Below are positions 1,028-55,913 of a stretch of DNA of 64,000 nt, piece after piece. The translations under genes were made by a program, and so were the position numbers. Where the stretch lies: the NCBI GenBank assembly GCA_038049695.1, contig CP142451.1, forward strand, positions 33,278,001-33,342,000, read 5' to 3'. The notes under the pieces were generated by a model, which had not been told where the DNA came from, searched no databases, and saw only the letters and a program-made list of their open reading frames with translations. This stretch comes from Cinnamomum chago (lineage: Eukaryota; Streptophyta; Magnoliopsida; Laurales; Lauraceae). Numbering within the stretch: position 1 is the stretch's first letter; each line of letters opens with the position of its first letter.

Positions 1028-1490
1028 GTGTGTACTCGGTCGACCGACCTGCAAGGAGGTTGATCGAAGACACTGTATTTTGGGAAAATCCAAGTCCCAG
1101 TTATCTTCCTGTGGAATTTTCAATCCCGTGTACTCGGTCGACCGAAGACACAGGATCTGCAAGGGAATAACTGAGAGCTGGGAATTTCTAACAGACTCAG
1201 AAACCAGTATTCCCGATCGACCGACCCCTGTGCCAGGTCGACCGAGGACACTGAAAATCACAAGTTCTGAGATATGACCTGTACCCTGTCTGACCCAGGT
1301 AAATCTGTGTACCGGGTCGACCGGCTGACCACCCGGTCGATTGGATACACTGTAAATCTCAGAGTACAAATCAGATTTCAATTCCTGATCTGCAGCATAG
1401 CAGGTCGACCCGACCCTTGCTAGGTCGACCTACCACACTGCATATAGACTGCAGGTTGACCCGACCCTTGCTAGGTCGACCTGCCACACC
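1028..1490. repeat. GGTCGACC palindrome array in copy E0
   Basis: About nine degenerate copies of the self-complementary core GGTCGACC, usually extended to CGGTCGACCG. They lie near 1037, 1133, 1213, 1235, 1315, 1334, 1400, 1423, 1453 and 1476, often as pairs 20-25 bp apart, with the pairs some 50-90 bp apart. The last two pairs lie in a clear tandem duplication. The array lies inside the inferred intron of the element. Confidence 0.8.
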
Positions 1491-3524
1491 GCAGATAGAC
1501 ATTTCTGGGTTCAACCTATTTTGGGGACTTTGATCGTTTGTGGGGCCCATTGACCATCCAAATGAACCTTTATTGATGTGCCAAGGCCGAGTCAATGGTG
1601 TGGCTCAACCTTGACTCGTGTGGACTACCAAGTAGGGTCTTGGTTGTTTAATCTACGTTGATCCGATCCTTAAACGTTGTCAATGATGCCTGTAACTTCA
1701 GGAGCACCAAACACAGTATCCATTGACATCATATCAAATTACCTGAGATGAACCTGGACCCGAATGTGGATCATTACCTAGGTTGGATTATTGATATTTT
1801 CCTGTTGATTTTTGTACTTGGAGTTCTTACTTTACTTATCATATTACTGTCACTCTTGTATCCTTACTATAGCTTATAACTATTAATTAAATGGGAAATG
1901 GATGACCTGAACCTAGGACTACTTAGAGGTGACCCGATGGTGTGATTGGGAGAACACTGACTCGTGTCTGTGGCTAGGCGGGCCCCTTTTATGGCCTTAG
2001 TATGGTTGTGTATACCCTTAGACTGGAGAGGTAAATTATATGGGATTCATATTGTGCTATTTACCATTGGAAATGGGCTTATTATCTCGTTTGGACTGTT
2101 TTAGACCAGTTCATGTACCTGATAGGCCTTGATATGGATCCAACGAGTGGACTTGGACTTGGATTGTGATCCATGGACCGAATTGATGTTTGAATCTCTT
2201 AGAGACCTTGTTAGGACCTTGTTCACGCAAGACAAAGACTAGACAGACACAGATCTTTAGAGTTTCTTTGAGTCGGCATAGACATTCACTCAATTGATCT
2301 AAGCTCAGCCTTTGGACTGATCATCACTGGTAGGAGCTAATTATGAGTGTTGTTAGACCCCAACCCAGACTTATTCGATTAGTGTACGATTAATGTGTGT
2401 TTAGTCTTAAGTGGTTTTAGTTATCGTTGGGTTAGAAATAATTAGTTTTAGTCTTGGACATAGGTTTGGGAATTTTGAGAACGTTTAGTACTAGTCAGAC
2501 ACACTCAGGAAGGCCTGAGTGCACGTGTAAGCTTGGGAGGATAATATCGGTTTCCGTGTATTTGTGATTTTGATTTCATTTGAATGATTTTACTATGTGT
2601 TACAACTTTCGTCTTCAGCTCATTCATGTTTGAAGCCTAAAAACCCAAGTTCTGGCCCAAAAAGGGTAAAGTTGTCTTTTATACACAAATCTGGATACAA
2701 AATTTGAGATCTCAAAACCATGTCAAAAATGTACTTTTTGGAAACTAGATATTTCGAGGATCGTTTTATCCTTCTTCGTCGAGTTCATTCGAGGCCCGCA
2801 AGATCATGTTTTCATTGATACAAGATTTGGCTATTTGGGCCCCATTTGCAAGTGTTTTAAGTCAACTACTCTTTCCCTCCTTCACTTTCAACTACTCTTT
2901 CCCTCCTTCACTTTCCTTCCACTTTGTTTTCTTGAATGATCAAGCTAGAAGAGTCCAAAGAAGATTCCAAGACCATCACCTTCTTCCTCTCATCTCAAGC
3001 TTTCTATTGATGTCCTTTTCTTGAAAGTTAGAAGTGAGCAAGCTCTCTATTGTCTTCATTTCTCTTGTTTGACCTTTTCTAGGTAAGAGCTCCAACCCAT
3101 CTCTTTAATGAAGTCTTTTTAGTTCCTTAAAATCTTGTTTTTCATGTTACAAACCCTTTTGTGAAAATGGGTTTCTTGTTTTCAAGATTGAGTGAGTTTT
3201 GTGTGGTTTCTTGGGTTTTGTAGTTCTTGGGATTAGCTTGAGTGGAAGTGCTTGAAGAGGTTAGTGGCATCTTTGATTTAAGGCAAGTAACCAATCTAGG
3301 ATGGATGTTAGCATGTGTGCATTTCATTTGTTTTCCTTGTACTCTCCTCATTCATTGAAAAATTTGGGGGATTTTGTTTTGATTGGAAAATGGAAATAAA
3401 ATGTCTCAATTTGTGGCTTGAGATGTGTATTTTACCCTTGGAGAGCATGCAGGCTCAGGGAGTGCAGGTGGAATGAGAAACAAGAAGAAGGGAAGAAGAA
3501 AACGTGAGAAATCTAAACTCAGCT

Positions 3525-3975
3525 GCATTTCCCGTGCAGTTTCGGTCAGCCGCTGGTCAGTTGGCGGCTAGCCGAAATCCCCATTTTGGTTAACCGCGAG
3601 CTGACTGAGCTCGGCGGTTCCCTTTCCAGAAGCTGGCATTTCGACAATGGGTTTCGGTCAGCTTGACGGTTAGCTAGCGGCTAGCCGCAATACCCCATTT
3701 TGGCTAACCGCTGGCCAACCGAACGTTTTCAGCTCCTTTTCCCGAAAGCTAAGTTTCATACGGGGGTCCTAGCGGTCAGCCCTACGGTCAGCTTACGGCT
3801 AGCCGCCGGGTCGCATTTCGGCTAACCGTAAGCCGACCGAAGTCAGTTCGGTTTCTTTTCCAAAGAGCTGCGTTTGGACCTGGATTTCCAGCGGTCAATC
3901 TGTCGGTCAGTTGGCGGCTAGCCGCTAGATCCTAGTTCGGCTAGCCGACACCTGACCGCGAGCTGACCGACACTG
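3525..3975. repeat. CGGCTAGCCG / CGGTCAGC palindrome array in copy A
   Basis: Many copies of CGGCTAGCCG (perfect palindrome), GGTTAACCG and CGGTCAGC / GCTGACCG words in both orientations, arranged in four or five sub-blocks of about 80-120 bp separated by ordinary sequence. The block sits between the splice donor at 3083 and the acceptor at 4836. Copy B carries the same word type. Confidence 0.8.
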
Positions 3976-4836
3976 ACACCATTGCCATTTTGAAGAGTGT
4001 TTGTAAGAATGAAAACTAGAACATGTTAAGTGACCTTTAGCCGATATTGTGCACTCGAACCTGAGATGTCTTTTAACTTCTGGGGCACCGATTCTCTTTT
4101 AAATTCCAACATTTGGGTTCAATTACACAAAGACCATCTAAAGGTCCTTACATGTGCTTGATAGGCTTTGTGTTCGTACTTTAGTTTTGATATAATGGAT
4201 ATCATCGTGTACTCGTTTTGAAGTTTAAGTACAAGCTCGTTTTGAAGATTTGTTTCAAGAAAAAGGGGTCACTTCTTAAGCGTGTTATGCATATTAATTA
4301 TGCCTTTTGCTAGTCGTGTTCGTCGTGTTTTGATAAGTGGTTTTCCCCTTTTATCTCGACATGTTTAAACAATGTTTTGCATGTTTTGTGCATTCATGAA
4401 TTTAAGTGAACACCACTGAGTTTGGACTGTCCTTTCAGTTTGATCCACTGTCTGGGGGTCCTTAAACTTGTGGACTGTCTGCAGACTGGTCGTGTATTTA
4501 TTACACATCGTGCGTGTCCGGTTCCGCAGCCGGAATCCCCGTATATGTGGGAATCGTGTCGTGATTATATTATGTATATCTTACTTGTCGTACGTGCTTG
4601 CTCTTTTCATTATAGATGATAGAGAAAGGATGGGCTCGTTGTGGAATGTAACTATTAATGATATAATAAGTATGCATGTTAGTTTCGCTCGTATTTTGAA
4701 ATGCTTAGTCTTGTAACTGTTTACAATCCAGCAAAATGTCTTTATTTGTTTCTTTAAACGTTTACTATTTTATGCTCATGCCTAAATTGATTACCTGCCA
4801 AACCGTTGTGTTTGATCCTTGTTTGTTGGTGCCCAG

Positions 4837-4925
4837 GTGTAGGTGACGTTGCCTTTGAGGAGCGTCCGAAGGAGGCTCTTGAGCCACCTCCAGTTAGAGA
4901 GTGGCAGCCCGACGATGTCAACTAG
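4837..4925 (+). other. Acidic terminal-exon reading frame of copy A
   Basis: After the acceptor-like GTGCCCAG, the frame beginning GGT at 4842 reads G-D-V-A-F-E-E-R-P-K-E-A-L-E-P and ends R-E-W-Q-P-D-D-V-N-stop. Copies B and D have a similar ending at the same place (E-stop-Q-A-D-D-V-M-stop and E-W-H-A-D-D-V-V-stop). It has no Met, so a start codon would have to lie in another exon. No known protein family is recognised. Shared residues argue for past coding function, but translation is not shown. Confidence 0.4.
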
Positions 4926-5300
4926 ACGTCGGGCGGGTTCTTGAGTTTCGCCATTTTTGTCATGGGGTTCTTTTACTATTTTGAGGATTGTATTGGCCTG
5001 TGTTGGCCTCTTATGGGATGTAACTAAACTTAACTTACTTTGTGTAGTCTCATAACTTGAATTATGATGGGAATGCCATGTTAACTCTTTTCTTTTGATA
5101 CTATGTCTTGTTATTATTTGTCATAGCACTTAAAAATTTATTGGTTCTTATCCTGATGTGATTTGTTACACGCTTCCGCAAACTTGATCGTGTGAGACAG
5201 ATTCCGCGTGTTTCGGGAATCCTCACCGCGGGAACCTGTGGGAAAACATAACAATCATTGATTCAACTCGTCGCGGGCCCGGGGTCAACTCGCCGCGACT

Positions 5301-6013
5301 GTGTTCAGTATGGGAGGGCCGCGGCATAATATCCCGCGGTATCCACCTCGTGTGAATGTGCCATATTGTATTAGACTAGGTATTATGCTTATCCTGAATC
5401 TAAATGCTTATCTTGCTTAACTGCCTAGATCATGTATCTTGACACTCTCTTAACTGTGTAACTGTCTTTACTCTTTTGATACATATGTTATATGTTACTT
5501 GTATACTGTGACTTACCAGATCATTAGATTTGACCCATTCTTGGTGCTTAGGTCTTGACCCCGAGTATGAGTACGAGGACGATGTGTTCGTGCTCATAGA
5601 GGCACCCGTAGCAGGAGACTACGGATGGGGACCAGTTGACCAAGAGGTCGAGCCGGAGGTTGGAGAGCTAGCACCTGGGGTTTGAGCGTCTATCTATGTT
5701 TGGGTTTTTGAGCGATTACTATAGTGAGCTGGATAGCAGTCAAATATGTAATAAATCATTGTTCTTATCAATTAATACTTTTATACTGGACTTCAGTCCC
5801 GTTTATATTTGATATATCATGATACCTATTGCTTCTATTTTACTTCTTACGCTTCCGCAATTTAACCATTGATATTATATTGTTTAAAAGTTTTAAATTG
5901 GAATTCACTGTGGACCTACGATCTTGGAAGTTCTCGATTTTTCTTTTCAAGGAGTAGTGCGCCAACTTTGATACCTTGACGGTTTTCTCGGTATACGGAA
6001 TTGGGGCGTTACA
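5301..6013 (+). mobile_element. TG...CA element copy E0, 3' part
   Basis: Sequence after nested copy A continues E0. It holds a GC-rich block like the GTTACCCGGTTCCGCGG block of B, an acceptor (GTGCTTAG at 5551), an acidic reading frame and a terminus GGGGCGTTACA ending at 6013. This explains why two terminal-exon segments occur 700 bp apart in one orientation. No target duplication can be checked because the left end is outside the window. Confidence 0.55.
5552..5685 (+). other. Acidic terminal-exon reading frame of copy E0
   Basis: After the acceptor TGCTTAG (ending 5551), an open frame from CTT at 5554 to TGA at 5683-5685 encodes about 43 residues: it begins L-D-P-E-Y-E-Y-E-D-D and ends V-G-E-L-A-P-G-V. 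It is strongly acidic and in the same position as the exons of copies A, B and D, but its C-terminus has diverged. No Met and no recognisable domain. Confidence 0.35.

Positions 6014-9501: not shown

Positions 9502-9538
<37 letters not shown>

Positions 9539-35067: not shown

Positions 35068-35099
<32 letters not shown>
34713..35099. other. AT-rich spacer with (TA)n
   Basis: No gene. A (TA)n tract (about 35067-35100) directly borders the MULE at 35100, and a similar (TA)n follows the other end (44663 on), so the element sits in an AT microsatellite and its target duplication is hidden. Confidence 0.6.
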
Positions 35100-35101
<2 letters not shown>

Positions 35102-36289
35102 AGGGTCCTGTAAGGACTGTCCTTACAGGTTTTCGTATGGACTCATCTCATGCGTCCGTTCTTTCAGCAGATCCAACGATCCAAACCCTCACATATAACA
35201 TATGAGTGGTAAACGAAAAGTGGGAAAATGAGAGCTCTCGCCCAAATCGACCCAAATCGTGGAGAGGAGCACCTACCATTTCGCCGGAGCCAAATCCCTT
35301 AATCTAGTTTGATCCCCCTCTCTCTCTCTCTCTCCCTCCCCCGGCGTCCTATTGGTATATCCTCTCTCGCAATTGCATTGAGTCATCTCCGGCTTGGGAT
35401 CTTCTCTCTCGGGAACGTCTCACTCTCCCTCTCAGCTCTCTCGATCGGCGTCACATCTCACTCTCCCCTCTTTGCGTCGCATGAACAGTAGAAATCCATT
35501 GCATTTAGTCATCTCCGGCCTGGGTTCTTCTCTCTCGGGATCGTCTCACTCTCCCTCTCATCTCTGTCGATCGGCGTCGCATCTCACTCTCCACTTCAAC
35601 AAAGGACTCGTAAGTTGGATACTACTATGCATTCTAGCTGTTTGAAGAAATGCTTCCATATTTTCATTTTCATTGTTCATGTTAATATGTCTTGTTGATG
35701 TTTGAAGAAATGCTCAGGGAATGCTCAGATACTCTGTTTTTCTAACTCTTTTTTTTTTTTGCCTGTTAGTGAGAAAATGGATTTTTTTGTCTGCCTAGGA
35801 AAGATGGGTAAGATTGGCTTCTCCCATGACTCTTGCATGCTGTGGGTGTAGATGTACTTCCTTATAGAATGGCTTCTCTTAGATTTTAAATCCTTGTATA
35901 AACTGTCCAAGACTCATTAGTTTCATCTTAGGTTTCAAATTTAATTTTGCTACTGTAGTTTCATCTGAGATTACAATTTCCATATTAATACTATAAGAAA
36001 TGTGAATTGAGTGCTCTCTGCACATAAATGTGTTAAGAGAAATCCAGGCATGCATGAACTCATGTTTTAGATTTTCAGTGACTCTTGGATGAGAGGGTAT
36101 TCATGTACGGATAGGCAGTTTAAAACTAAATAAATGGTTTGACTCAGCTTGCTGGAACCAACTAGAGTATATTTCTGAATCAGGTGCACTTGAAGCAGTT
36201 CAACATAAGAAGAAAAGTTGCACAAAACAGTGTGGGAGAATGATTCAAATACACAAGGGCAATTTCATAAAACCTCAAGTAGAAATATT
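35100..36289 (+). repeat. Left terminal inverted repeat of the FAR1 MULE
   Basis: Complementary to 43397-44659 nearly throughout. It contains a terminal hairpin (35107-35129), a doubled segment ATTGCATT(G/T)AGTCATCTCCGGC (35373-35474 and 35498-35597), and ends at AGAAATATT. A (CT)n tract precedes the doubled part. Confidence 0.9.
35107..35129. other. Hairpin at the MULE tip
   Basis: CCTGTAAGGA, loop CTG, TCCTTACAGG: a perfect 10 bp stem 7 bp from the end. The other end has the same hairpin with one change (44630-44652). Confidence 0.85.
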
Positions 36290-36568
36290 AGTGCTCATAG
36301 ATTGTGCAGTAGAATACTATGAAGTGCTGGCCAGGTGGTATGATCACATGAAGTGTGCTCTAATAATCAGATATGGAGAGGTAAAGAACCTAAATATTAT
36401 TAGTGGAAGCACATATCATCTCACCAATTTAATTCAATACCGTATGTACATGATCTGTAATGACATTTTTGGTTAAAAACCCTCGTAGTTGTTGGTGTTA
36501 ACCATGCTCCAACTCTCATTAAGAAAGCCAATGCTAGTGGGACTGCCTTCTCCATAGCCTGAGTGAGA

Positions 36569-36660
36569 TTTCTTTGTCTGCCCAGGAAAGATGGGTGAGA
36601 TTGGCTTCTCCCATGACTCTTGTATGCGGTTGGTGTGGATGTACTTCCTTATAGAATGGT
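36569..36660 (+). repeat. Third, internal copy of a TIR segment
   Basis: TTTGTCTGCCCAGGAAAGATGG ... GATGTACTTCCTTATAGAATGG repeats 35781-35871 in the same direction, 280 bp inside the left TIR boundary. It lies just upstream of the GRF gene. Confidence 0.8.
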
Positions 36661-36769
36661 CTCAATCCTTGTTCCATGATTGAAATTTTTTCTAATTATT
36701 TGTATTGGTTTCCTTTATATAATACCTTCTTTTTCTATGTCTACCTGAATTTTTTATCTTTTCTTCAGA

Positions 36770-37264
36770 ATGTCATCTTCTAATACAATCCGATCTGAGT
36801 GTACTCCAAAATGCCGATGTGGAGCAGGAGACATGAGATTATATACTTCTCGTACGCAGTTGAATCCAAATAGAAAATTTTGGAAATGCCCGAATTGGAA
36901 TGTAAGGGTGTTTAGGCTACCTCATAGATCAGTCAATATACATTGTCAAGGTTTCAAATCCATCATTAACAATTTTTTATGTGCGTAAATCTTTATAAAG
37001 AATGAAAATGGATGTGATGCGTTCCTTTGGAAAGATGAAGTAGCAAATTGGCAGTGACCTGAAGCCAATTCATCGACTTGTGAACGAGAAAACTGGAGAG
37101 AAGAAAAGAGCAATTTGATAGCGGTCGTTGAAAAGCTTGAAAGTTCATTCTGTGTTTTTATTGAAGTAGAGAAAGTTCGAAATAAGTATCTACGAAAAAT
37201 TTATCATGCTATTATAGTCACATGTTGTATAATAATCTTTGTTTTTCTGTTCAGCCAGGCATGA
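36770..37264 (+). pseudogene. GRF-type zinc-finger / membrane-anchor protein in the MULE (one stop)
   Basis: Exon 1 (36770-36901, 44 codons) encodes the first half of a GRF zinc finger: K-C-R-C-G-A-G-D, then T-Q-L-N-P-N-R-K-F-W-K-C-P-N-W. The donor is AAT|GTAAGG. Exon 2 (37001-37264, after TTTATAAAG) completes it with N-G-C-D-A-F-L-W-K-D-E. A premature TGA lies at 37055-37057; in the same frame follow a charged segment with heptad-like E-K-L-E-S-S and E-V-E-K-V-R, and a hydrophobic stretch (I-I-V-T-C-C-I-I-I-F-V-F-L-F-S) before TGA. GRF fingers bind nucleic acid in other proteins; small plant GRF proteins with a coiled coil and C-terminal membrane segment are common but uncharacterised. Here it is a candidate accessory gene of the transposon. 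The splice model is from inspection. Confidence 0.7.
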
Positions 37265-39516
37265 AATACATGCTTTGGGGATCTATTTTCAAATACATGA
37301 TTTGGGGATATATTTTCTATAAATTATTAACAACATGTCTTGTGTATGTGGAACATAAACATCTCTGAATGGGCACTTGTGAGTGATCTCTGAATGACAA
37401 CTATGATGGTAAATGAGGGTGGGGATGATTTGTAGATGAAATTTGAAACTCTGGGCCAGTTTCCTTAATCCATTTTTTTCTCCTGTTACCCATCTTTCTC
37501 CTACCGTTTAACTGGGTCTCAGAGTTCCATTAATTCGTTTCTTTTTCTATTTTTATTTTTCAATGATAAAAATATTTGTTTGAAACTCTGGGCCAGTTTT
37601 TGTATCTATTTGAAACTCTGGGCCAGTTCTTGTTGCCTAGAAATTGTATGGGATGTGATTAACATCCTATGAAATGATTCAAATGCCAATGCTATTATTA
37701 AAAGCTCTGCACGTGTTTGATGAAGCTCTGAAAGGGGGAGTCGGATTGCCATGCCCAGCGGTTGAGAACTATGAACCAAATGCCAAAGTGTTAATAGTGG
37801 AACCACATTCTGCAGGACCCATTAGGATCTCTGGAACTTGATTTACCTTATACATAGGTACGTGTTACTTGGGAACTGTGGACACTTTTGCTTTTGCCAT
37901 GGTGAAAGTGAAACATGACAGGGTGAATGCAAAACTAGAGACACAAGTGAATGCAAACCTAGGGACTTGTGTCTGCAACCGAACTGGATGGTGTAGATGA
38001 AGGGATACCGACTTCAGCCTGTGTTCCAAAATTAAAGTAAGTTCAAAGTAAGTTTGAAGTGTAACCAAAGAGGAGAAGGAGCAAAATGTGGAAGGTTTCC
38101 ACCCACTTTTGGACCCTGACATTGGCCCGTTTGGATCTCGGGAGAATGTGTAGCTAATTTGGTCTCCTATTGGCCAATTATCAAGTGCTGCATCTTGGAA
38201 TGAAATTCGCCACTATGAAGTCCCAAAAGTTTGGACCAAGCTGGATTGAACCTATATTTTGTAGCCACACACCTTGGCTTTGTTTGTTTGCACTAAAATG
38301 CCTAGGAGTTTTAAACAGAGGGCGTTTAAAAAAATATCAAAGGTGAATTTTAAAAATAAGCATCAAATAACATCTTTGACGATTTTTTTTGGGAATTCAG
38401 CTTTAGTCTTCATTTTTAACCACTCTATCTATTCTAATGAATAGGCTGGGACTTTTTTTTGTGCTGCTCTGTTTCACCAAAAGACTCCAAAGAAGGCTTG
38501 GGCTATAATTCAATTGGAGTTTAGCTAGCATTTGGATATGATCTCTGCTTCAACCATACAAAAAGCTCCTATAGTCTCTTCTTCACCTACCCTTTTACTG
38601 CCTGAATTTGGAGATGAGTGGCCGGTATAGCTTGTGCTCACCTGGATCAGCACACTTAGGTACAACCATCTGGACATCTTTATCTCATGGCAGTAACTCT
38701 TCAGGTCAGCTGTTGTTGGGCACATTTTGTCTGTTGGTGCTCCAAGAGATTTGGAAAAGTAGAAACCTATCCAAACCTAGGACTCAGACCAACCAGGCTT
38801 TGGACCAGAGAAACTACCTTTCTGGCCCTGAAGTGCAACACTAAATCTTTCAGAAGTCAGTATCTGGATAAAATTCTTCATTGGCTCAACCTCACTAAGC
38901 CAAGTACAAACAATGAGTGAGAAGCAAAATTTATTGGCCAAACTATCTATGAAAAGCACTACTATGGAAGGAAGTCAACAACGAAGACCTACCAGTACAT
39001 CAGATGAAATATAGAATTCAGATGAACTAAAATCCTCAAGGATAGCATTGAAACATAACCATCCATACAAATTACAGAAGATTGGGAAAAAAGGCAAAAG
39101 GCATTCCAATAGTTCAATATAAAATCTCTGTTTCTGAAAACTTAAATTTGCGACAACATTCACATTAGGATTAGAAATCCCACAAAGCATTCGGGAGAAT
39201 TCTGCAAGATCACATGGCTGCTACCAAATCAGGAACCAACTGCATCTTACATCAGTTGAGGACATAAATTCGTGAGGTAATGTCTTGAACCATCCAATCA
39301 AATCCCTCAAGCAAAATATCATCTCTAAGGGTTGACATCGGAACCGGACACATCTGAAGAGCTTCCTTCAACATGTGTATCAGATGGTGCTTCTGGCATT
39401 CTTGGAATGTCCACATGTAGATCGACAATCCCCCTGAAAATAAAACACAGGCTTTGTAATTAGTGATGTAAAATAAGAATAACAAAAAATGAACAAAAAA
39501 AAAATGACGCAAATCA
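37265..39516. other. MULE interior between the GRF and transposase genes
   Basis: No domain-bearing frame. The word TTTGAAACTCTGGGCCAGTTT occurs three times (about 37444, 37579 and 37609). Short frames at 37606-38122 and 38525-38959 lie on both strands and show nothing recognisable. A possible last exon of the transposase lies at 39434-39252 after an acceptor-like TTTTCAG. Confidence 0.5.
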
Positions 39517-41678
39517 TTACCTATTCAAGAGAGCTGGGCAATTCCGTTTGTCATGTGAAACACCACATTGATTACATCCACGACAAAGTCGTTCTTTCTT
39601 TTGAGCTTTCTCCTTTGATGACTTTAGTCTCTTTGGACGGCCCTTTGTTGTAGCATGAGGTGGTTCAATCAATTGCACTGCTTCACTAACTGCGTTACTA
39701 ACCATTTTGTGTTTTCCATTTGATGTATGTTCTTCTCCAAGTTCAAGTTGATTCATTTGGCGACACATTTTATGAAGATCAGTCAAAACACTTATTGCAT
39801 ACTCGTATGTGTTTGAAAACATACTTGCCTCATTAGAAACCATGTTGCCCCAATAAGACAAATCACCATGCCGGACAATCAACGAGTTACCACCAGTAGT
39901 ATTCTCCACCATGACACATTTGCTATATTTCGTACCATCTCTTGCGTGACGAGTCCATCTCTTTAATATAAAGTGCTCAGGCAAGGTGAAAATCATCTCG
40001 TGTTTCAACGCAACAATGATATGACTGCATGTAATTCCTCGAAACTCAAATAGTTGGCAAGAGCAGTTTGCACATTTAGAATCTTTCTTGAAGATGACCC
40101 TTTCAGAAGTTTTGCATTTATTTTTCATGGACAAAACATCATAGATGCTCTCTGCCTCATCTTCCTTTACAAGTTTTGGAATGGATGATACCATTGCCAT
40201 GAATTGAACTTGAAACTCATGGAAAATTTTTCTCGAATATATTCCGGCCATTTGTTCTTCCATCTCCAAATCAGTAAGCAGTTTTGGCCTCGTTTGCAAG
40301 TTTTCGTGCTCCGCTTTTAACTCTTGGCACCTTTGACGTGCAATGGCACGTTCAAAGCGCATCATAAAGTCATGCAAACCACACTTATGTGTTTCAAACT
40401 GCTTAAGGAAGGCATTGAAACTTTCACTTCTCTGCGATGATGACATTCCCGCAAAAAGCATACCCTTTAAAAAGATTGGTACCCACATCTCACGAAGCGT
40501 GTACATGTCTTCTAGCCAACTGTTTTCTTTCAATTTATATTCATTTCGAATGCCGGCCCATTCCTTCTCAAAATGATCCTTTGAGACAGCATTGTAAACA
40601 ACTTTATTTATTGCATCCATAAGCCCGTCAGCATGAATTGCAATTCCACCTAACTTGCTGGGCAACTTTTGCATAATGTGCTAGAGACAAAATCGATGAA
40701 TTGCGGAAGGCATAACGGTTTTAATTGCTTTCCTCATCGCCGGATCTTGGTCTATTACAATCGCTTTTGGTGGACCCGCAGGCATAACTTCCAACCAACG
40801 TTTAAATAGCCACACAAATGAATCAAAACTCTCATTTGATAAAAAACCACTTCTGAAGATCACCGTTTGATCATGGTGATTTACTCCCATAAATGCACCG
40901 AAGATAAGATCATATTTATTAGTTTGATATGTTATGTCAAAAGTAACAACGTCACCAAAAACGTTGTATGAAAGTCGACATAGGTGATCCGCCCAAAATA
41001 CATGCTTGATTTGATTGTTCTCATCTGCCTCTATAGAATAATTAAAACCAGGATTCATTTCTTTCATGTTTTCAAAATACTCATACAACATCTTACCATC
41101 TCGCCCCTTCTTTGCTTTCTACTTATCTCGATGGTGATTTCTCATGTCCTGCTCATTGAAACCAACAACTCCTGAACCACCAGCTTGTGTGCTTAAGAAT
41201 CCCATTTGATTTGCAGGACGAATGTTATTTTCTTCAAATGCATCTATTATCTTTTTATGAGCCGGAGTAATCTTACGATGTGAACGAAACATATGGGTTT
41301 TACGCGGAGTAGATAAGACATGAGTATGTTCTACAACCAATTTGTTAACAACCCAGTGATCGATAGTGATTTCTTTCACAATCATCTCCGCTCCACAATT
41401 TTCTCTCGTATATGGAACACGCTTCTGTGCCACATAACCTCGTTCTATTCTTTGACCCTGTTTGCCGCACATAAACTGCTTCCAACATACTTCACCCCTC
41501 TTCTTTTTAACTGAACCACGCCTAACACCAAAACTAGCAGCCCTCACATAAGTTAAAATTCGTAAGCTTCTTCCAAGTCATGAAAATACATTCCGACCTT
41601 TGGGGTTTTATCATCGTCTACATCAGGTATGAATATTTTACTCATGGAAGATGCAGCTGATTCCATCTTCTCATCCAT
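39517..41678 (-). pseudogene. FAR1-type MULE transposase (frameshift and two stops)
   Basis: Reading from ATG at 41678 (M-D-E-K-M-E-S): a FAR1 N-terminal zinc-finger region (G-M-Y-F-H-D-L-E-E-A-Y-E-F, then F-G-V-R-R-G-S with the C-W-K-Q-F-M-C and H-T-H residues), broken by a frameshift near 41555. An in-frame TAG at 41121-41119 follows, then the MULE transposase core: T-F-D-I-T-Y, G-V-N-H-H, V-I-D-Q-D-P-A-M and H-R-F-C-L. A second TAG (40683-40681) stands where the family has Trp in C-L-W-H. The remaining 385 codons include the SWIM finger C-S-C...C-S-H (near 40065-40015) and a basic tail with a knuckle C-N-Q-C-G-V-S-H-D-K-R-N-C. FAR1/FHY3 regulators derive from such transposases; the position within TIRs shows this one is still a transposon gene. 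Confidence 0.88.
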
Positions 41679-43396
41679 AGCCAAAAGTGAACAGCAAACC
41701 AAGAATATACATGAAGGAAAAAAAATTAAGGGATAAAATAATTGCGCATCATATATTCTCAACACAATAATAAATAGATAAGATAAATTAAATTAACTCC
41801 CAAAATATTTCATTTGAGAGATACCTAAAAGTTTCCGTGGTGGTTAGGTGACCCACCATTGTTGGAGCTGGAAAACTCTTCTATCTCATTACCGGCAGGT
41901 AAGGTCTGGGAGAACAGAGCCGGGTGAAAAGAGATAGGGTCATCCATGTATAGCAAAAATATGACCCTCTTGGAGTTGGAATAACAAAAATATTTACTGC
42001 ATCAGGTTTGAAAGAAATATCAAATTTATTTTTCAATAAAAATAAATTAACCTAGAACATCCATCATTGTCGGAGCTGGAGAACTCTGCCTTCGTCTTTG
42101 TGATAAAAAATGGCAGCTTTGTACATAGATCTCTCTCTCTCTCTCACTGCACTTTCATTTCCATGCTTCTTTTCTTCAGTTTGGAAGTAGCATTTACACA
42201 GTTCAATTCAGCTTCTTTTCATGAATCACAAGATCTTAACAGATTAGAAAGTTGTTTTCTTTTCGTTTTTTTTTTTGTTGTTGTGAAATCAGTTCATAAA
42301 GATGTTTGAAAGTTGTTTTCCATGAAATTTGCTTTGAATAGTGTGTCTTCATACCTTAGAAAATGGACAATTTGGATAGAAGATCAGATTTCCAGGTATT
42401 CAATGACTTTTTCCCCAGAAAAGTGGTTGAAAGTGGCCAAAGGCTGGATTTTGAAGGGGAAAAGTCCTGTTTATTTAGGTTCATTGCTTCTGAATTGGCT
42501 GTTTTTTTTTTATGATCTGTGTGTCTGTGCTACCAAACAAGCTTTCATTTGCTGATTGTTTCTGCATTTTTAGTGCTAGATGATTGAATTACACTCAGAT
42601 GTGAAGGAAAGTTCCTTTCTTTTTTGGGGCATTTATGGTGGGGAGGGTTGTAGACATGTGCTCTAATCTTCTGAGCTACAGGCCCTAACCTTGTCTTGTC
42701 TCCACTGGATCTATTCCCTTGACTACCCTTACAAAGGAACCTTTTTCCGCCGCCTTAACCATTCGGGGTTAATGTAAAATTCATCTCCAATGGATCTGTT
42801 TCCTGGGGTTTATGTGCCTTTCTCTCCATAACAATTGTGCTTTTGTGGTGTGAAGTGGGAGAGGGATGTTTTCATAATTGAGGTTTTGAATAATGCATCT
42901 TTTTCATTTTTTCTGTCAAAGTAGGCATCATTTCATCTATTTGCCTTAAAATGGGCTTAATTTGGATGAATTGGGGTGTTGTAGGTTGTTGGCTTAGTTG
43001 AAAATGTCATTAACCTGAGCCTTCTAAGGTGCTCTGCTTATAATCTTTTTGACCCTTTCTGATTTTAGAGAGTAAAGGAATCTTGCTACCATGTATTAAT
43101 AAAATCCAGGTGGATACAATTTTCTGAGGTTTCATCAGGATGTTCAAGTTTGCAACAATTCATTTATGTGATTTTTCTGATGGCTGAAGCTGGAGCCAGT
43201 GAGCCACTGTTTGTCTGCAGAATTGAACCTGCTGTAAACAACCCATTACAGTTCAGCAATGGGTTCATTTAGTTCTAGCCTTTGTGCTTGTTTCTATTTT
43301 TCAATTGTTTCTCTTTTCTCTGTGGATTGTGGAAAGAAGAAAAAGGAAGATTTTGAGGGGGTAGATCCCAATATCTTTCATATGGTTGATATTTCA
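41679..43396. other. MULE interior upstream of the transposase
   Basis: Should contain the transposase promoter and 5' UTR (minus strand). TTGGAGCTGGAAAACTCT near 41862 is repeated as TCGGAGCTGGAGAACTCT near 42070. The plus frames at 42067-42555 have no domain. No gene. Confidence 0.5.
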
Positions 43397-44659
43397 AATA
43401 TTTCTACTTGAGGTTTTATGAAATTGCCCTTGTGTATTTGAATCATTCTCCCACACTGTTTTGTGCAACTTTTCTTCTTATGTTGAACTGCTTCAAGTGC
43501 ACCTGATTCAGAAATATACTCTAGTTGGTTCCAGCAAGCTGACTCAAACCATTTATTTAGTTTTAAACTGCCTATCCGTACATGAATACCCTCTCATCCA
43601 AGAGTCACTGAAAATCTAAAACATGAGTTCATGCATGCTTGGATTTCTCTTAACACATTTATGTGCAGAGAGCACTCAATTCACATTTCTTATAGTATTA
43701 ATATGGAAATTGTAATCTCAGATGAAACTACAGTAGAAAAATTAAATTTGAAATCTAAGATGAAACTAATGAGTCTTGGACCGTTTATACAAGGATTTGA
43801 AATCTAAGAGAAGCCATTCTATAAGGAAGTACATCCACACCCACAGCATGCAAGAGTCATGGGAGAAGCCAATCTCACCCATCTTTCCTAGGCAGACAAA
43901 AAAATCCATTTTCTCACTAACAGGCAAAAAAAAAAAAAAAAAAAGAGTTAGAAAAACAGAGTATCTGAGCATTCCCTGAGCATTTCTTCAAACATCTACA
44001 AGACATATTAACATGAACAATGAAAATGAAAATAGGGAAGCATTTCTTCAAACAGCTAGAATGCATAGTAGTATCCAACTTACGAGTCCTTTGTTGAAGT
44101 GGAGAGTGAGATGCGACGCCGATCGACAGAGATGAGAGGGAGAGTGAGACGATCCCGAGAGAGAAGAACCCAGGCCGGAGATGACTCAATGCAATGGATT
44201 TCTACTGTTCATGCGACGCAGAGAGGGGAGAGTGAGATGTGACGCCGATCGAGAGAGGTGAGAGGGAGAGTGAGACGTTCCCGAGAGAGAAGATCTCAAG
44301 CCGGAGATGACTCAATGCAATGGATTTCTACTGTTCATGCGACGCAGGGAGGGTTCACAACGATTTGGGGATTTTCTGATTGCGAGAGAGGATATACCAG
44401 TAGGACGCCGGGGGAAGGAGAGAGAGAGAGAGAGAGAGAGAGGGATCAAACTGGATTAAGGGATTTGGCTACGGCGAAATGACAGGTGCTCCTCTCCACG
44501 ATTTGGGTCGATTTGGGCGAGAGCTCTCATTTTCCCACTTTTCGTTTCCCACTCATATGTTATATCTGAGCGGTCTGGATCGTTGGATTTGCTGAAAGAA
44601 TGGACGCATGGGATGAGTCCATACGAAAACTTGTAAGGACGGTCCTTACAGGACCCTTA
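43397..44659 (-). repeat. Right terminal inverted repeat of the FAR1 MULE
   Basis: Inverted copy of 35100-36289. It differs by small indels (a longer poly-A at 43926-43943, a longer (GA)n near 44420-44441). Short frames in it are shadows shared by both repeats. Confidence 0.9.
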
Positions 44660-47422
44660 CCCTATATATATATATATGTGTGTGTGTGTGTCCAATTCTT
44701 ATATATGAAAGCCACTCTTTTCAATTGAGAAATCGGTTCCAGTTTTTGCAATTTATTTTGACTATTTTAATTTCTTTTGACCCTCCCAATTCCCTATGTC
44801 CCACGTCCCCTTTCATTAATACATCAAAAAAAAAATCCACATCAAAATCGTTCTCCTTTCTCATATCTCCTCTTAATGCAGTTATCTATAAGTGTTCTTC
44901 AACCATTCCCCTTCTCCTTTCTTCTCACGTTTTTGCTCTCTTATTCTTCTTCATCCTCATGTCAACTTCCTCCACAATAATCCCCCTCTTCCAAAGGAAG
45001 CAACACCTGTGTATGTGAATAAGATCCTGGATCCTCCACCACTTGCCTGACACTTTCTGCGAATGGTAACCTGTTATCTCACTCGCGCTTAACAACTTGA
45101 AGATTTGGTTCGGCATACATAAAGAGCATCGACTCTTCTCCTTCCTCGACTCCTCCTTAGAACAAACTTCAACTGTGACGTCCTAACCGTGGTAGCGAGA
45201 ATGTTAAGATTGCGATATGGGATAATGCTTAGAAGATAAATTTCCCCATTTGATCGGTCACTGACGTCATCGAAATTGCTACTTCCTTCATCGAATTGTA
45301 ACGTATACCTACTATACGTTATATGTTAGAGATAATTGTGATCAGCTATAGTGATTGGTTTTTCCCTTTTTTTCTTTTTAGATCTCAATTTTTGTTTCTC
45401 TTTGTACATCTTAGTCTCAATTGGTGATGAAGAACAATTTGTTATACCCATCATATGTTGTAATGCTATAATGGTTTTATGCACACCAACTGTATGGTAA
45501 AATGTTTGAGTCAACTGTGATTATCTTCATAAGATCATCATGGTGTTTTTCCCAATTCACACATCCATTATGCATCCATCGTATTACAGTATGTTTTCTA
45601 ATTAGATTGATATAAAAATCTACTCTTAAATTCGAGATATGTTTTCGAATACCTATTTTTGTATGATATTTTCTTGCAATGGAATATGTTGTATACTTTG
45701 TTCATGTTTTGGTTAAAGAACATCCAAAAAGTTTAAAAGTTAATTTCTCTTCTATTATATAATGATTTGGTTCATAACTTGATGCGTCGTCCATCACAAA
45801 TTGCACAATTGTAGCATATCGATTTCCTACCACTACTGTAATTTCACCTTTCACCACACAAATTATAAGAAAATAAGTTGATCCCCTTTCTGCATCAACT
45901 GACATTATTAAAATAAAATCAAATAAAGTATACAAATTAAAAATCAACGTCTTACAACATTTTGTTCACCTAACAAACATAGAACTTCATTCACAATCCT
46001 TCAGCACAATTGTTCATCAGTGTTCTTCACTGGGGTCCTTTAATTAATTTCAATATTTTTAATAAGTATAGGAAAAAGAAAATAAAGGAATAGAAATGGA
46101 AATGGTTTTAAGATCTCAATATTTCATATTTTTACTAAAATTTTTACAATTCTATATTTATTATTTTTTTATATTCTCAATTGTGTGACTTTTAAGAAAG
46201 CCTCTAAATTTATGTGTGAGAAATACTTCTATTTTAGATTTTATAAAATATAAACATATGAAATCAAAATTAAATAATATTTATTGTATGACTTCTAAGG
46301 CCCGTGCTAAGCACGGGGATATTTTGCTAGTTATAATTGAGTGAAACAGTGATATTGTTGGGTCACAAAGTCAAAAAATAAAATATATATAGAAGGTGGA
46401 TAATTCTCAATGTCATTTCGACCAAAGTATAAGTTACATAAATGTATTTTCTTAGGGGCTGGTAGCTACTTGTGTGGGTTCTATTTTCTAGTCAGCCTTC
46501 TCTGTTGTATTTTTACTTCTAGATAATGAAATGCCCATTTAGCATAAAAACAAGTTATATAAATGTAAAGTATACATTTTTCTTACTTTTTAAATTGCCA
46601 AGTGAAATGGAGGTTGTTTCTTTGTCATCAAGAAAGAGGAATCTCTCCTTTCTATTGGTTTTGATCAATCAGAATTAGAAATCAAATCGAATGATCATTT
46701 AACTATATCTGAAAAGAAAAGTGACTAAGATTACGTGTAAATGATTGAGCCATTGAAAATTATTAAGAATAATATAGTAAAGTTTGTAACTGAGTGGTCA
46801 AAGTTGAGAATGTGTTGGTGAAAATCAATGATTTTGATATATATAATAATTGTTATAATTTCATGAAAATTTCTTTAAAGAGATTAATTCGACATGAAAC
46901 TATTTTCAAAGAAAATAAAATAAAATAGCACAAACAAACATAAGCATTAAGAATTCATCACTCTAAATAATGGATTCGTCTTATTAATGCTCAAAAGGAG
47001 GTTTTTATTTTAAAAAAAAAAGAGAGAAAAGTTTGTTTAAAAAGAAAATAGGTAGCCACACATCTTAGTGGACATAGTTGTGAAAGATTATTTTATTTAA
47101 TAGATCTAAAAGAATTTCAAAGTTATTTCCAAATTGTAAAAAATTAAAGAAGATACCCTAAGAACACTTTCAGAAATTGTGGGATCGAGAAGTGTTTCGG
47201 AAAGACATGTGGCATGTACGTAGTGCCCATTGGTCCTATCACATGCGGGGTTAGGAAAGTATTGATATATGAAAAAACCAGATTTGTTTGTCAATTTTAG
47301 CTGCTTGGGCAAAGATGAAGAATGATTGTGAATTGTTCAGTACTCATATTTACCATCCGCTTCTATTGGCCATATACAGCTCGAATAGCTACCAGCGTCT
47401 AATGATGTTTATTCTCCATAGA
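44660..47422. other. Intergenic region including Helitron-like DNA
   Basis: AT-rich, no convincing gene. A (TA)n-(TG)n microsatellite follows the MULE. The region up to 46330 probably includes a non-autonomous Helitron whose 3' end is annotated separately; its 5' end could not be placed. 46331-47422 shows nothing recognisable. Confidence 0.4.
46301..46330 (+). mobile_element. Helitron 3' terminus (hairpin + CTAG)
   Basis: CCCGTGCT-AA-GCACGGG forms an 7-8 bp stem (46301-46317). Ten bases later CTAG (46327-46330) is followed by T. A GC hairpin 10-12 bp before CTRR with a T on the 3' side is the structural signature of Helitron ends. No Rep/helicase gene is present, so a non-autonomous copy is likely. 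Confidence 0.6.
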
Positions 47423-47427
47423 TGACT

Positions 47428-50352
47428 TGTAACACCCTCAACCCCATCTAAGTGTGATTAATACTTAATTAATCTCGATTAGATGTCTAATGTTTGTTTT
47501 GAATGAGTTTATGGTGGATTAGGTAGATAAGTGGGCTTTTGTGTAAACTCGGGTAGAATTATGACTCTTTGAATAGTTAGGGTCGCGTGTATTGTTTCAG
47601 TTTTAGTGGGTTCTTTGGGTACACTATAGAGCATTTCCTATTGAGTCATTTTCCTGTTTTGACCCAAGCCATTTGAGCCCAACTCTACTCATATTCAGGC
47701 CCCTTTTCCAGCCAAGGCCCCTTTCCCAAAATATATTAAATTGAATGGGTTTGCATGCAAAACCCATGAATAAAATCCCTTTAAAAGAGCCCACCCCCCT
47801 CCCAGCCGATCACTCTCTTCTTCCCTCAGTTGCATGTAATGCATTTCATCTTCTTTTTTCTAGCTTTCTTTCATTCTCTCTTCTAATCAAAGCAAGGGCC
47901 ATTGATATAAGATTTGAAAATCCCCTCTTCATCTTCAATCCTATATATCTACATCTCCTACAAACAACCTTATCTCAAATCACCTCCATTGATAAGGTTT
48001 TCACTCAACCATCTTTTCTTCGCTTCCACTCAAGTTAATGAGGGTTGTGTATGTTGGATTTGTGGAGCTAGAAAGCTTCACTCAGCTCCAAGTGCAACAT
48101 CGTCTCCATCCTCAAGCTTTCTTCATCGCCATCTTCTCCTATCTCCTCCATTGGTAAGATCTCTCCTTCCTAATGATTCTCCAAAGTTAGAATGGGTTGT
48201 AGGATCCTATTTTGGTTGCATGCACCCTCGTTTAGCTTATCTTTTGCATTTCACCATTTTAGGAGCTTCACATGAGTTAGTGAATTGAGAATTTTACTAC
48301 AATTGAGTCAAATAAGGGTATTAAAGTTGAAAAGCACCAATTAAAGGCAATTATGAGCAATTAAATTCATGCATATTGGTATGATCCTTGATAGTATGAT
48401 AAGTGTTTCATTATGAATTTAATTCAGCCCAATTTTCTAATTGTTGTTTAAATGGAAGAATGAGTCTTAGTGATAATGGGTTAAGGAAGATTGAAATGGG
48501 TATAAGAAAATGGATGGAATAAGAGTATTGGATGCTCAAATTGAGTAGGAATGGTCTTTGGAATGTATTAGAAAAAAGTATGAAAATTTAGGACGGAATG
48601 GAATGGAAGAACAATTCAGAGAGTGCCTTCCCAGGTTCAGTCTTCGGAGTTTGGTCAACTGTCGGTTAACAGACTTCGACTCGTTTATCTGGATAAAGAA
48701 AATATCGGAAATCAGAGTTTGGTTAACCGAGCCCTCACCGACAGGTGATAAAAATCCTTCGGTCATAATAGTTGGATTGGTATTTTCGTACAGTCTGAAC
48801 TTGTAGGACCTCGGTTAGCTGTCGGCTAACTGAAGTGACCACTCCCGATTAACCAACAGTAACCGAGAGGTTACTGAACCCCACTGGGTTCTTTTGATGA
48901 GAAATAAGCTTTAACATTTACTTAGGAAAGTTTATATAACTAGTCATGGTCAACCCTAAGGATGACTATGATGCGTATACTAAGCCAATAAGACTTTAGG
49001 ACATTGAAAGGCCTTGTAGGCAATAGAAATGAAACCCTTGACCGTTTATCATAGTCCAATGGAGATTATTTGCACGAGAAATATTGGGGCTGAGATAATC
49101 TCATGCACTCACTACATCGTAATGGATGGTTAGAGGCTACTGGTAAATAGATTAGGTTGAATATTAAATTACCTCAAATAAATGTTCATATGCATAAATC
49201 GTATTATTTTCCAATTAGTTATTGTAATTGTCCTTCAAATGTTGCTGTATAATGATTTGAAATTTGAACTGACTAAGTATGAGATTTGAATAGAATTGAT
49301 TCGAAATGAATAGAATCGAAATGAATGGATTCGAAATGAATTGAATTGAATAGTCTTACTCAAGTTCTATTATTTGATTCTCATGGTTCGACACTACTTA
49401 GCTTCGACCGTACGATACTCGACGAGGTTAAATTTGATTTAGTTATTTGAGGCCATTGCAGTAGGTCGTCTAGAGCGCCGAACTCCAGAACCAAATAGCC
49501 AGGTCAACCTTTGGCCAGGCCACTGGTGATATTGCAACATGAGTGCTCTCTAATTGAAAGGATAGAGCCAAGATAGTAGTCAACTAGTAAAGTGAATCTC
49601 TCGATCTAGTATTCAAAAAGCATGATTAATTCATAGTGCATAAATTTGCTTAGTGGACTATTGTTTGATCTCTATTTAATCACTGGTCATCAAATCTAAA
49701 TTGATACAACATGTGTTAATTCATAAATTTCTTAATACTTTACTGAATTGTCGTATTCACGGTGCTACTCTTGGTGTCACAGATTCAATTACAGAAATCG
49801 ATGTTGCTTGATTCCAGGAGACTGAGTAAAAGTATTAGTAGTTTCTCCAAGATTAGAGTGTGAGCTGACTAAAGATATCAGCTAGCTTTGATTGTCGAAG
49901 AACACATAAGAGATAACTTGGGTTTGGGAATAGACTTGCATCATTTCACCTTGCATTTATTCTACAGATATGTATATGATCAATCATGATTGGAATTCGT
50001 CTTGGAACATGTTTCAATTATATAAAGCATCTTGTAGTTGTTACCTTTGAAGTACTTTGGAATTATGCATGTAAGGGGTTTTGACTTTCTAATTTAAATT
50101 AATGGACATTCTTATTGTGTAATTATTGGAATTATTAATGGACTGTTCATACTTTAAAACCGATGATAATACAGGCTTTCGCGTGAAATGTATAGTGACA
50201 GGTGCCATCGGTATATCCTCCCACGTGTGAAGTGTTATTTTCTCCTTTGTGGAACTCATACTTGGTCCGAAACAGGTGCGAATCTCATGGGAGTACGTGT
50301 CACATCTCAGAAATTACCCTCATCAAGAAAATCTTGTGCTCGGGACATGACA
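47428..50352 (+). mobile_element. TG...CA element copy C (5 bp target duplication TGACT)
   Basis: Starts TGTAACACCCTCAACCCC and ends GGGACATGACA, flanked by TGACT at 47423-47427 and 50353-50357, a perfect 5 bp duplication. 2925 bp. It has the leader (CT-rich, about 47800-48150), a splice donor TTG|GTAAGA at 48154, a palindrome array (48650-48875) and an acceptor-like GGTGTCACAG near 49782. The acidic frame is not preserved after that acceptor. No pol genes. Confidence 0.85.
48650..48875. repeat. GGTTAACC / CGGTTAGC palindrome array in copy C
   Basis: Words GTCGGTTAACAG, GGTTAACCGAG, TCGGTTAGCTG, GTCGGCTAACTG and GATTAACC alternate over ~220 bp, in the same relative place as the arrays of the other copies. 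More decayed than in A or D. Confidence 0.65.
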
Positions 50353-50357
50353 TGACT

Positions 50358-54142: not shown

Positions 54143-54531
54143 TGTCGCGACCCCGGACCGGGCCCGCGGGGCTAATCCGGGATCGGGACTAATTAATCAT
54201 ATTAAGGATGACAAGGTGTTAAGTGTACACCCACAGGTGTCCGCGGTGAGGATATCACAACAACATAAATATTTCTTTCAATGCGGAAGCGTGTAGCAAA
54301 TCAAACATTCAATTTTTGTCACAAGATAAAAACACTTGTATAAACCAAGTATCAGAATGAGCAATGATCATAAGTGCTTTCCCAGAAGAAAGTTAAAGTT
54401 TATACAAAAGATCATTTAATTACATTTCCCAAAAATAGAGGCCAACAAAGGCCAATAAAAACAAAATACTAACTCCCAAGGAATGGTTAAACGTTTTCCA
54501 AAATGTTTCGTCTCTCATAGCAATCAAATGT

Positions 54532-54623
54532 CTAAACGACATCATCAGCATGCCATTCAACTAGGCGTTGCGGTTCACCGACCGCGTCCTCAAACTCCGC
54601 CTTGGGATAGGCAATGTCTGGAC
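54532..54623 (-). other. Acidic terminal-exon reading frame of copy D (intact)
   Basis: After the acceptor TACTAAG the frame is open for 29 codons: G-P-D-I-A-Y-P-K-A-E-F-E-D-A-V-G, then E-P-Q-R-L-V-E-W-H-A-D-D-V-V-stop. A stop lies in frame just upstream of the acceptor, so the frame makes sense only after splicing. E-P-Q-R-L is identical in copy B. No Met; family unknown. Confidence 0.5.
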
Positions 54624-55627
54624 CTTAGTACCAAAGAGTGGGTCAAACATGACGGTTTGGAAAATTGGTGAAAAGACATGACAATATAATAATAAATGAA
54701 TTTACCTTCAAAAGCATTTAAACCTGTTTAAATAACAATTTCCATAAAAGAGATAAATCGTTTATTCAAGTACAAGTATGTGTTGTAAAACATGTAAAGG
54801 TAACCAAGGAAATAGGAAAACAAGCAAGATGACAATCACACGAAGCTAAGTCCTCTATCACCGAAGTGACAAAGCATATCAAGGCATTGATCTCAATCAC
54901 ACGAGGTGAGGAGAAACAACAAAATATATACATATACATATAATATACGGGACATGACCATGGTAGCGAGCAGGGCATTGGGAACCACGGTAGCTATCTG
55001 GGGTATCGGGACAAGACCACGGTAATAACCGGGTGGTGGGATCCAAACTGCAGCAGGCGGGACAAGAGGGAGATCTCCAAGTCGGTGGATCAGACCAACA
55101 GATTTATCCAAGCTTAGTGGTGCCGACTCATAGGTCAAATGACAAGATCAAAACATGTATAAAATACATCAAGTGCAAGTACATAAACAATGGGATGGGG
55201 GTGCTCAAAGGCACAACTATCATATCAATCCGGGTATGCATATCGGGGCTAGCAAAATGCTACAATTACAATTTTAACATTTTCGGGAATGCATAAGAAA
55301 TTTGGAATAATAAAATACGGATGAACTTTCGAAATCTCAAGACAAGTATCGGGGTTTCAGACTAGTTCGAAGTGAATAGGGATCCCGTATGTCTAAATCA
55401 ATAAAGACTTGGTACTCCTCGAGTTTGGGGACATTCCGGGGTCCTTATACACTTCAAGAATTTTCCAAAACTACAATGAAACTTTGTGAAGTGGTTTCTT
55501 TCTCAAACAAATTTCAAATAATGAGTATAAGTATTCCCATCATAATAGGGTTCCCAACAAACCTCTCTTAATCATTTAAACATTTTATTAGTGCTCCCAA
55601 TACAACCCCAGGTGAACAATACCCATC

Positions 55628-55913
55628 GCTTGAGCGGACATTGAGTTCACTTGAGCGGTGAGCTCTCTGGAATAGTTGTCTAGGTGGGTTCGCTCGAGCG
55701 AAGTTGATGTCGCTCGAGCAAACTCATCCAGTATCAGGTTGGCTCGAGCGAAATTTCAGTTCGCTCGAACTAACCACTCTTTGGAATGAGTCATGGGAGG
55801 GTCGCTCGAGCGATGAAGGGTTCGCTCGAGCGAACTGTCCACTGGAATGGTTCAAACCCTTTTCTGGGCACTTTGCTCGAGCGATCTGTCAAGTTCGCTC
55901 GAGCGAACTATCC
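55628..55913. repeat. TTCGCTCGAGCGAA palindrome array in copy D
   Basis: At least nine copies of the 14 bp perfect palindrome TTCGCTCGAGCGAA or close variants, arranged as pairs about 20 bp apart, the pairs 60-70 bp apart (pairs near 55690/55710, 55742/55761, 55801/55821 and 55872/55893). The spacer after each pair carries a CTGTCC or CTATCC-like word. The array lies in the inferred intron. Confidence 0.9.

Follow-up and report, generated by a model that had tools for sequence, protein, structure and literature searches.

VANDAL elements, which are Mutator-like, are DNA transposons. The VANC-target motifs of Arabidopsis VANDAL elements form tandem arrays that diverge quickly between related elements (PMC5735166, PMC10398659). 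In the parts of these papers that were available they are described as short tandem motifs in noncoding element DNA, with arrays that differ where the overall sequences stay similar and with motif copies that evolve jointly and rapidly. Another case is the retroviral dimer initiation site, a leader-RNA palindrome whose spelling varies among relatives while its self-complementarity stays (PMC4588261, available in part). Among plant long terminal repeat (LTR) retrotransposons, elements of the Tat/Ogre lineage carry a short tandem array at a fixed place, the 3' untranslated region, that differs between families and was hypothesised, in the part of the paper available, to originate from illegitimate recombination or abnormal strand transfer (PMC7004042), and BARE combines splicing with stated dimerisation and packaging signals (PMC3735527, likewise in part). 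The 64-kb stretch of Cinnamomum chago contig CP142451.1 analysed in this study (the window) contains domains that mark it as plant DNA (GH17-X8, SWIM and plant mobile domain). It holds five copies, named E0, A, B, C and D, that are assigned to one diverged plant LTR-retrotransposon family, all of them old, and arrays of short dyads lie in a predicted intron of these copies. As far as the partial sources extend, the lentiviral dimer palindromes come closest in keeping their symmetry while their spelling changes, and the VANC targets come closest in documented behaviour.

The main observation is that the dyads in these arrays occur as doublets, a feature absent from the preliminary description of the window. 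When each copy was scanned with its own word, allowing up to 4 mismatches, all 16 of the 16 distances below 30 bp between neighbouring dyads in E0 (4), A (6), B (1) and D (5) fell at 20-23 bp. These distances were 20, 21, 20 and 20 bp in E0, 22 bp in B, 22, 20, 21, 20 and 21 bp in D, and 22, 22, 23, 23, 23 and 23 bp in A, where two of them run from an outer half-site to the first dyad. Distances from one doublet to the next ranged from 30 to more than 100 bp. The module in E0, A, B and D consists of two dyads of 10-14 bp, whose centres are separated by 20-23 bp or roughly two turns of the helix, plus outer complementary arms. In E0, A and D the modules of one array agreed at 0.67-0.92 in the dyads and at 0.27-0.60 in the outer 20 bp, and the spacer inside the doublet agreed at 0.27-0.45 in E0 and D and at 0.42-0.57 in A; B and C have too few doublets for this comparison. 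Additionally, extra CGGYYA half-sites flank the dyads at steps of 11-12 bp in 3 of the 4 A modules and in B. The spacing of about two turns and the half-sites at one turn would suit proteins on one face of the DNA helix, without proving such binding.

The words that make up the dyads fall into three types. The E0 array (1028-1500, plus strand) has TCGGTCGACCGA-type dyads with doublet centres at 1041/1061, 1218/1239, 1318/1338 and 1406/1426, together with a fifth, hand-placed doublet of 20 bp at 1457/1477, and the final two doublets are a 51-bp tandem duplication with a 92% match. The word GGTCGACC was found seven times, exclusively in E0 (1038-1474). There is also a lone dyad at 1139 (1134-1145) that is closed directly by outer GTGTAC/GACAC arms, and this single-dyad module gives the impression of a doublet whose dyads were merged by a deletion between repeats. 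The A array (3535-3975, plus strand) has four modules, in which the dyads are of the CGGCTAGCCG and CGGYTARCCG kinds and their centres lie 22-23 bp from each other. The B array (33145-33330, minus strand) is of the CGGCTAGCCG type; one of its doublets (22 bp) is clear, and a further module is degenerate. CGGCTAGCCG itself occurs seven times, five times in A (3565-3938) and twice in B (33173 and 33195). The D array (55620-55915, minus strand) is of the TTCGCTCGAGCGAA type and has five doublets with centres 20-22 bp apart; the shorter word CGCTCGAGCG occurs in it four times (55691-55896), three of these within the full TTCGCTCGAGCGAA. The C array (48640-48900, plus strand) is of a degenerate CGGYTARCCG type from which one doublet was picked (23 bp), and its foldback z is -4.7.

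The preliminary description gave C a separate word, GGTTAACC, but this word occurs only once in C. Because the C array aligns with those of B (z 6.7) and A (z 4.1; alignment z values are relative to 100 mononucleotide shuffles), and because A also holds GGTTAACC, at 3588, the C array is read as a degenerate A/B-type array and not as a GGTTAACC array. Four independent words were rejected on the same alignments. Perfect palindromes of at least 8 bp were counted and compared with 1000 dinucleotide shuffles per array. They were in excess in E0 (7, reached by 1 of 1000 shuffles), A (6, reached by 10) and D (8, reached by none), the excess was marginal in B (3, reached by 45 of 1000), and C had a single one and no excess (602 of 1000). 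The statement that every copy carries a palindrome array is therefore correct for E0, A and D and marginal for B, and it does not extend to C by itself. As foldback DNA, all five arrays are nonetheless conspicuous.

Covariation was examined by permuting arms between the modules of one array, using five modules in E0, four in A and five in D. The outer arms, taken from the edge of the dyads out to position 16 from the centre, paired within their own module more often than expected (79 of 135 pairs against 65.0, p=0.0006), and p was 0.002-0.006 when any one array was left out. A register shift of 1-4 bases lowered the pair count to 24-45. Module centres were set by hand and several arm lengths were tried without correction, p being below 0.01 for 9-22 positions and 0.054 at 25. 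A control foldback across the linkers between modules also paired (52 of 106) because the arms are partly common to all modules, and therefore only the excess over module shuffles counts. Inner arms had no own-module pairing excess (p 0.90). Selection on the single palindrome was rejected, as dyads showed no self-pairing excess (p 0.36 and 0.39, and 0.13 for A, B and C pooled) and a 2x2 comparison at the variable pair gave p 0.18. What covaries is thus the foldback made of two dyads and not the palindrome on its own.

Comparison of arrays with their flanks gave a further view of how the words change. B and D share 71% identity in two flank blocks, which span 1001 and 962 alignment columns and cover 1-977 and 2040-2928 of B, and the flanks directly beside the array align at z 7.7 before it and 10.8 after it, whereas the arrays themselves are unrelated (z 0.8 and 0.0). 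The proposal that symmetry is kept while its sequence is replaced is supported by these unrelated arrays in homologous flanks and by the outer-arm covariation, but the unit to which it applies is the foldback. The B-D identity is about 0.6-0.85 across most of the element. It declines gradually towards the array, from 0.65 at about 300 bp before it to 0.54 and 0.49, and lies at 0.43-0.54 across the preceding 200 bp and the beginning of the array. In that beginning the values are 0.43-0.46, with 0.62 in a stretch of 40 aligned columns and 0.52 later in the array, and after the array identity is 0.57-0.63. In plus orientation the arrays of B and A align at z 9.6, those of B and C at 6.7 and those of A and C at 4.1, against flanks beside the array at 2.9 and 1.6 (A-B), 4.0 and 0.3 (B-C) and 2.9 and -0.2 (A-C). 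The contrast between array and flank is clear for A-B and weaker for B-C and A-C. The A and B arrays score nearly equally in both orientations (z 9.6 and 9.8), as expected of duplex sites, and this was counted for a reading as DNA recognition; BLAST matched them in opposite orientation only. The E0 array reaches z 2.8 and 4.9 against B and stays below 2 against A, C and D.

Alignable flanks had been claimed for the copies in general. This is strongly true of B and D, but A shares only short blocks with B and D, and E0 and C are recognised chiefly through landmarks. Flanks group B with D, and arrays group A, B and C. A single replacement on the D branch would explain the word types, which leaves no demonstrated conflict with phylogeny. 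The consensus half-sites, written from the outer end inwards, are TCGGTC (E0), TCGGTT (C), TCGGCT (A/B, the outer base often being G) and TCGCTC (D), each one base from its neighbour in a chain. The chance of such a chain for random 6-mers in place of the E0 and D half-sites, with the A/B and C words given, is 0.000085. This suggests, but does not prove, shared descent of the words. Four unrelated word replacements do not agree with a chain of one-base steps or with the placement of C in the A/B type.

The placement of the arrays is regular. All five copies keep one order of landmarks, with a donor-like GTAAG/GTATG, AAGGCAA(G/T)T 190-231 bp further on, the array, and an acceptor-like TTGGT...AG, and the earlier claim that the array sits at the same position in the intron holds on this basis, with a looser pattern for the C acceptor. 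The last landmark, after the acceptor-like site, is CGCTTCYGC in four copies and a variant in C; the looser patterns by which the acceptor and last motif of C were matched were introduced after C was inspected. A TATA-like box lies upstream of the donor in 4 of 5 copies, and the array-bearing stretch is predicted to be an intron. The motif AAGGCAAGT is kept in all five copies, at 716 (E0), 3280 (A), 33745 (B), 48344 (C, as AAGGCAATT) and 56318 (D), in each case 190-231 bp beyond the donor-like site, and it matches the GC-type 5' splice site consensus. On the 3' side of the acceptor-like site an open frame runs to a stop in E0 (5552-5690), A (4837-4925) and D (54531-54623) and would encode an acidic C-terminal peptide. 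This peptide ends in EWxxDDVx in A and D, and B (32092-32183) has a similar end with an internal stop. The LTR may carry the last exon of a spliced open reading frame (ORF).

The explanation favoured here, although held tentatively and well short of probable, is that the array is a fast-changing, self-complementary, multi-site cis recognition array for a dimeric factor, resembling the VANC targets. The array would be a multi-site recognition element in cis for a dimeric, possibly element-encoded, DNA-binding protein. It is proposed that modules multiply through tandem duplication, which would quickly homogenise an array to a new word, and that a change of specificity appears as a symmetric change of the dyad because the dimer reads the two half-sites alike. 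Families that switch word would then escape shared silencing or parasitism. The points in favour are the 20-23 bp spacing in 16 of 16 cases, the greater agreement of dyads than of spacers, the half-site steps of 11-12 bp, the array-versus-flank contrasts for B-D and A-B, the one-step chain of half-sites and the lack of a wobble bias in the sense strand (see below). Like the VANC targets, these arrays consist of short tandem noncoding motifs that differ between related elements. Going by the partial VANC sources, the two systems differ in that VANDAL elements encode the binding protein and have motifs of 8-9 bases, whereas the present arrays sit in an LTR-like carrier, are built of paired dyads and have a recognition factor that is only proposed. 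A broader statement, that the conserved information lies in the symmetry of two dyads and their spacing by two turns of the helix and that the letters are a changeable, family-specific address, is considered rather unlikely. Its letters would be rewritten in both half-sites at once, its reader would be a co-evolving dimeric factor or the RNA itself, and related families would show no cross-recognition.

Several points weigh against a recognition array. Neither a binding protein nor an autonomous element was seen in the window, and there are only five copies, all old. The short distances in C were 11, 19, 24, 14, 11 and 23 bp, so that only 1 of 6, the last, which was taken as a doublet, lies at 20-23 bp. 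Dyads were picked by word likeness, which partly inflates their identity relative to the spacers, and self-pairing of single dyads does not rise above their pairing with other dyads. The A-C array alignment (z 4.1) barely exceeds that of the B-C flank before the array (z 4.0), and the B-D array is the trough of a diverging intron interior with no sharply bounded swap shown. The chain of half-sites uses half-sites chosen by the authors and is weaker under letter permutation, which for the D or E0 half-site yields an equal closeness in 0.067 or 0.033 of cases. In the available text of PMC5735166 the VANC motifs are not called palindromic (0 occurrences). Also, it is in the outer arms that covariation is significant, and this is predicted more directly by a foldback model, be it an RNA hairpin, a cruciform or templated conversion.

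One such model is an RNA signal, in which the modules would be hairpins of an unspliced leader RNA serving dimerisation, packaging or restraint of splicing, and the palindrome would be free to change if two copies of the same RNA pair. The arrays lie within a predicted intron, in 4 of 5 copies a TATA-like box is found upstream of it, and only unspliced RNA would hold them. Relative to 100 dinucleotide shuffles the sense RNA folds below expectation in 5 of 5 arrays (z -8.1 in E0, -8.8 in A, -9.9 in B, -4.7 in C and -11.0 in D), and a plus-strand scan of 639 overlapping 200-bp windows with 30 shuffles each gave z below -4 in 17, of which 10 fell in the five arrays. The antisense strand also folds below its shuffles, with z -9.7, -10.0, -6.4, -3.0 and -13.4 in the same order, more strongly than sense in three arrays and less in two. 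Among 75 non-Watson-Crick outer pairs, 18 were G.U in the sense strand and 28 were A.C, which is G.U only in antisense; the corresponding counts were 10 and 17 for self pairs and 7 and 6 for inner pairs. These counts do not clearly indicate that the transcribed strand tolerates wobble pairs, and selection specific to sense RNA was rejected on them. The earlier suggestion of RNA dimerisation or kissing loops thus finds no specific support, and no Rfam match at gathering score was present in the window. Lentiviral dimer-initiation palindromes also vary, as GCGCGC, GGAUCC, GGUACC and GCGC (PMC4588261). In the available part of that source they are a single loop palindrome of 4-6 nt per RNA, in contrast to several dyads of 10-14 bp here without a sense wobble bias. 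In the lowest-energy sense folds of the isolated arrays, judged by eye, the dyads are mostly in stems, within or between modules. The BARE intron lies in gag and is 104 nt long, and a palindrome goes unmentioned in the part of that paper available (PMC3735527). An RNA signal is ranked third and considered improbable.

Neutral upkeep of the symmetry is the chief rival and is ranked second, although it too is thought unlikely. Here foldbacks would trigger template switching during reverse transcription or replication, one arm would be rewritten as the reverse complement of the other, and slippage would spread the module, giving symmetry without function. Stems are reported to arise and persist through template switching (PMC8794818, available in part), and covariation confined to outer arms of the same module, dyads without a self-pairing excess of their own and the 51-bp tandem duplication in E0 are what this process would leave. 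Neutral upkeep alone does not explain why dyads are alike across modules while spacers differ in E0 and D, why the spacing is 20-23 bp in four arrays, or why the A and B arrays align though their adjoining flanks hardly do. Selection and templated conversion or rewriting cannot be told apart from five old copies. A still less probable explanation, and the least favoured of all, is that these are hypervariable tandem repeats of the ordinary kind that LTR retrotransposons such as those of the Tat/Ogre lineage carry, with palindromes incidental to repeats produced by strand transfer. Such arrays vary in monomer sequence and length between related elements (PMC7004042), and the array does lie in the fastest-diverging part of the B-D alignment. 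However, in the available text Ogre arrays are reported in the 3' untranslated region, not in LTRs, and no paired-dyad architecture is described for them there. The Tat/Ogre arrays lie between pol and the 3' LTR, whereas those of B, C and D are inside a 3-kb TG...CA unit with target duplications. Incidental palindromes would also not be expected to recur as 20-23 bp doublets in three word types with dyads more alike than spacers.

Searches beyond the window did not extend the family. The LTR-block pattern had 0 matches in the viral contigs and 0 in the genome contigs scanned, and the D-type doublet had 0 matches in the contig scan. The A-type doublet was found in 2 viral contigs and the E0-type doublet in 32. 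These 34 contigs have a GC content of 0.53-0.71, 33 of them have none of three LTR landmarks and the other has one, and their word density is mostly 2-3 per 500 bp (6 in one contig, 4 in two others). They were regarded as unrelated GC-rich DNA and set aside without further study. In a literature search judged from titles and abstract openings, no paper on palindrome arrays in plant LTRs was recognised.

The five copies are read as LTRs, and three of them, B, C and D, have the anatomy of solo LTRs. These three are 2.9-3.1 kb long, start with TGTAAGACCCC or TGTAACACCC and end in GACA, and these three of the five copies have the TG...CA termini of a solo LTR, each with a target duplication beside the single LTR. 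The B element (31672-34707, minus strand) runs from TGTAAGACCCC to GTTGCGACA with CTACT on both sides (5/5), the C element (47428-50352, plus strand) from TGTAACACCC to CGGGACATGACA with TGACT on both sides (5/5), and the D element (54143-57266, minus strand) from TGTAAGACCCC to GTCGCGACA with AACGC and GACGC (4/5). As expected of solo LTRs, the window contains no near-identical second copy and no match to TGGTATCAGA/TCTGATACCA. The lineage is tentatively taken to be Tekay/Del from the termini and the LTR length. The A element (2351-5298, plus strand) runs from TGTTAGACCCC to CGCCGCGA and is inserted in E0, since the acceptor-like site and the terminus of E0 resume after it. It lacks a clear CA end, its 3' edge is uncertain by 1-3 bases, and its target duplication is imperfect and ambiguous (AGTGT vs TGTGT). 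The 5' part of E0 (1-2350, plus strand) begins to the left of the window; it has a TATA-like box at 237 and a GTATG donor-like site near 485, upstream of its AAGGCAAGT. The 3' part (5299-6013, plus strand; the left edge is uncertain by a few bases and computations took 5303) has the acceptor-like TTGGTGCTTAG at 5541 and ends in GGGGCGTTACA.

The window has other repeats as well. Inverted repeats of about 1.2 kb at 35083-36289 and 43397-44677, 92-98% identical, enclose an ORF of 385 amino acids with a SWIM zinc finger (39517-40674), and the whole (35083-44677) probably represents a Mutator-like element whose terminal inverted repeats are long. Both of its ends lie in AT repeats, which obscure any target duplication. 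A tandem array at 22145-24857, with a unit of about 455 bp and copies 72-79% alike, folds strongly in places (z -7.6 at 24201). The lowest folding z of the window scan (-13.1) was at 26001-26200. A search there for inverted repeats of more than 12 bp, with loops of at most 10 bp, found none, and therefore the arms may be further apart. An inverted repeat at 30621-31327, about 235 bp and 79% alike with arms about 250 bp apart, resembles a MITE or foldback element.

If symmetry and spacing are selected, the arrays would be natural footprints of a fast-changing recognition system that LTR retrotransposons possess, much as DNA transposons have VANC, and changes of its specificity could be read straight from genomes through the word types. 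If template switching maintains them, the arrays would instead be a record of that mutational process.

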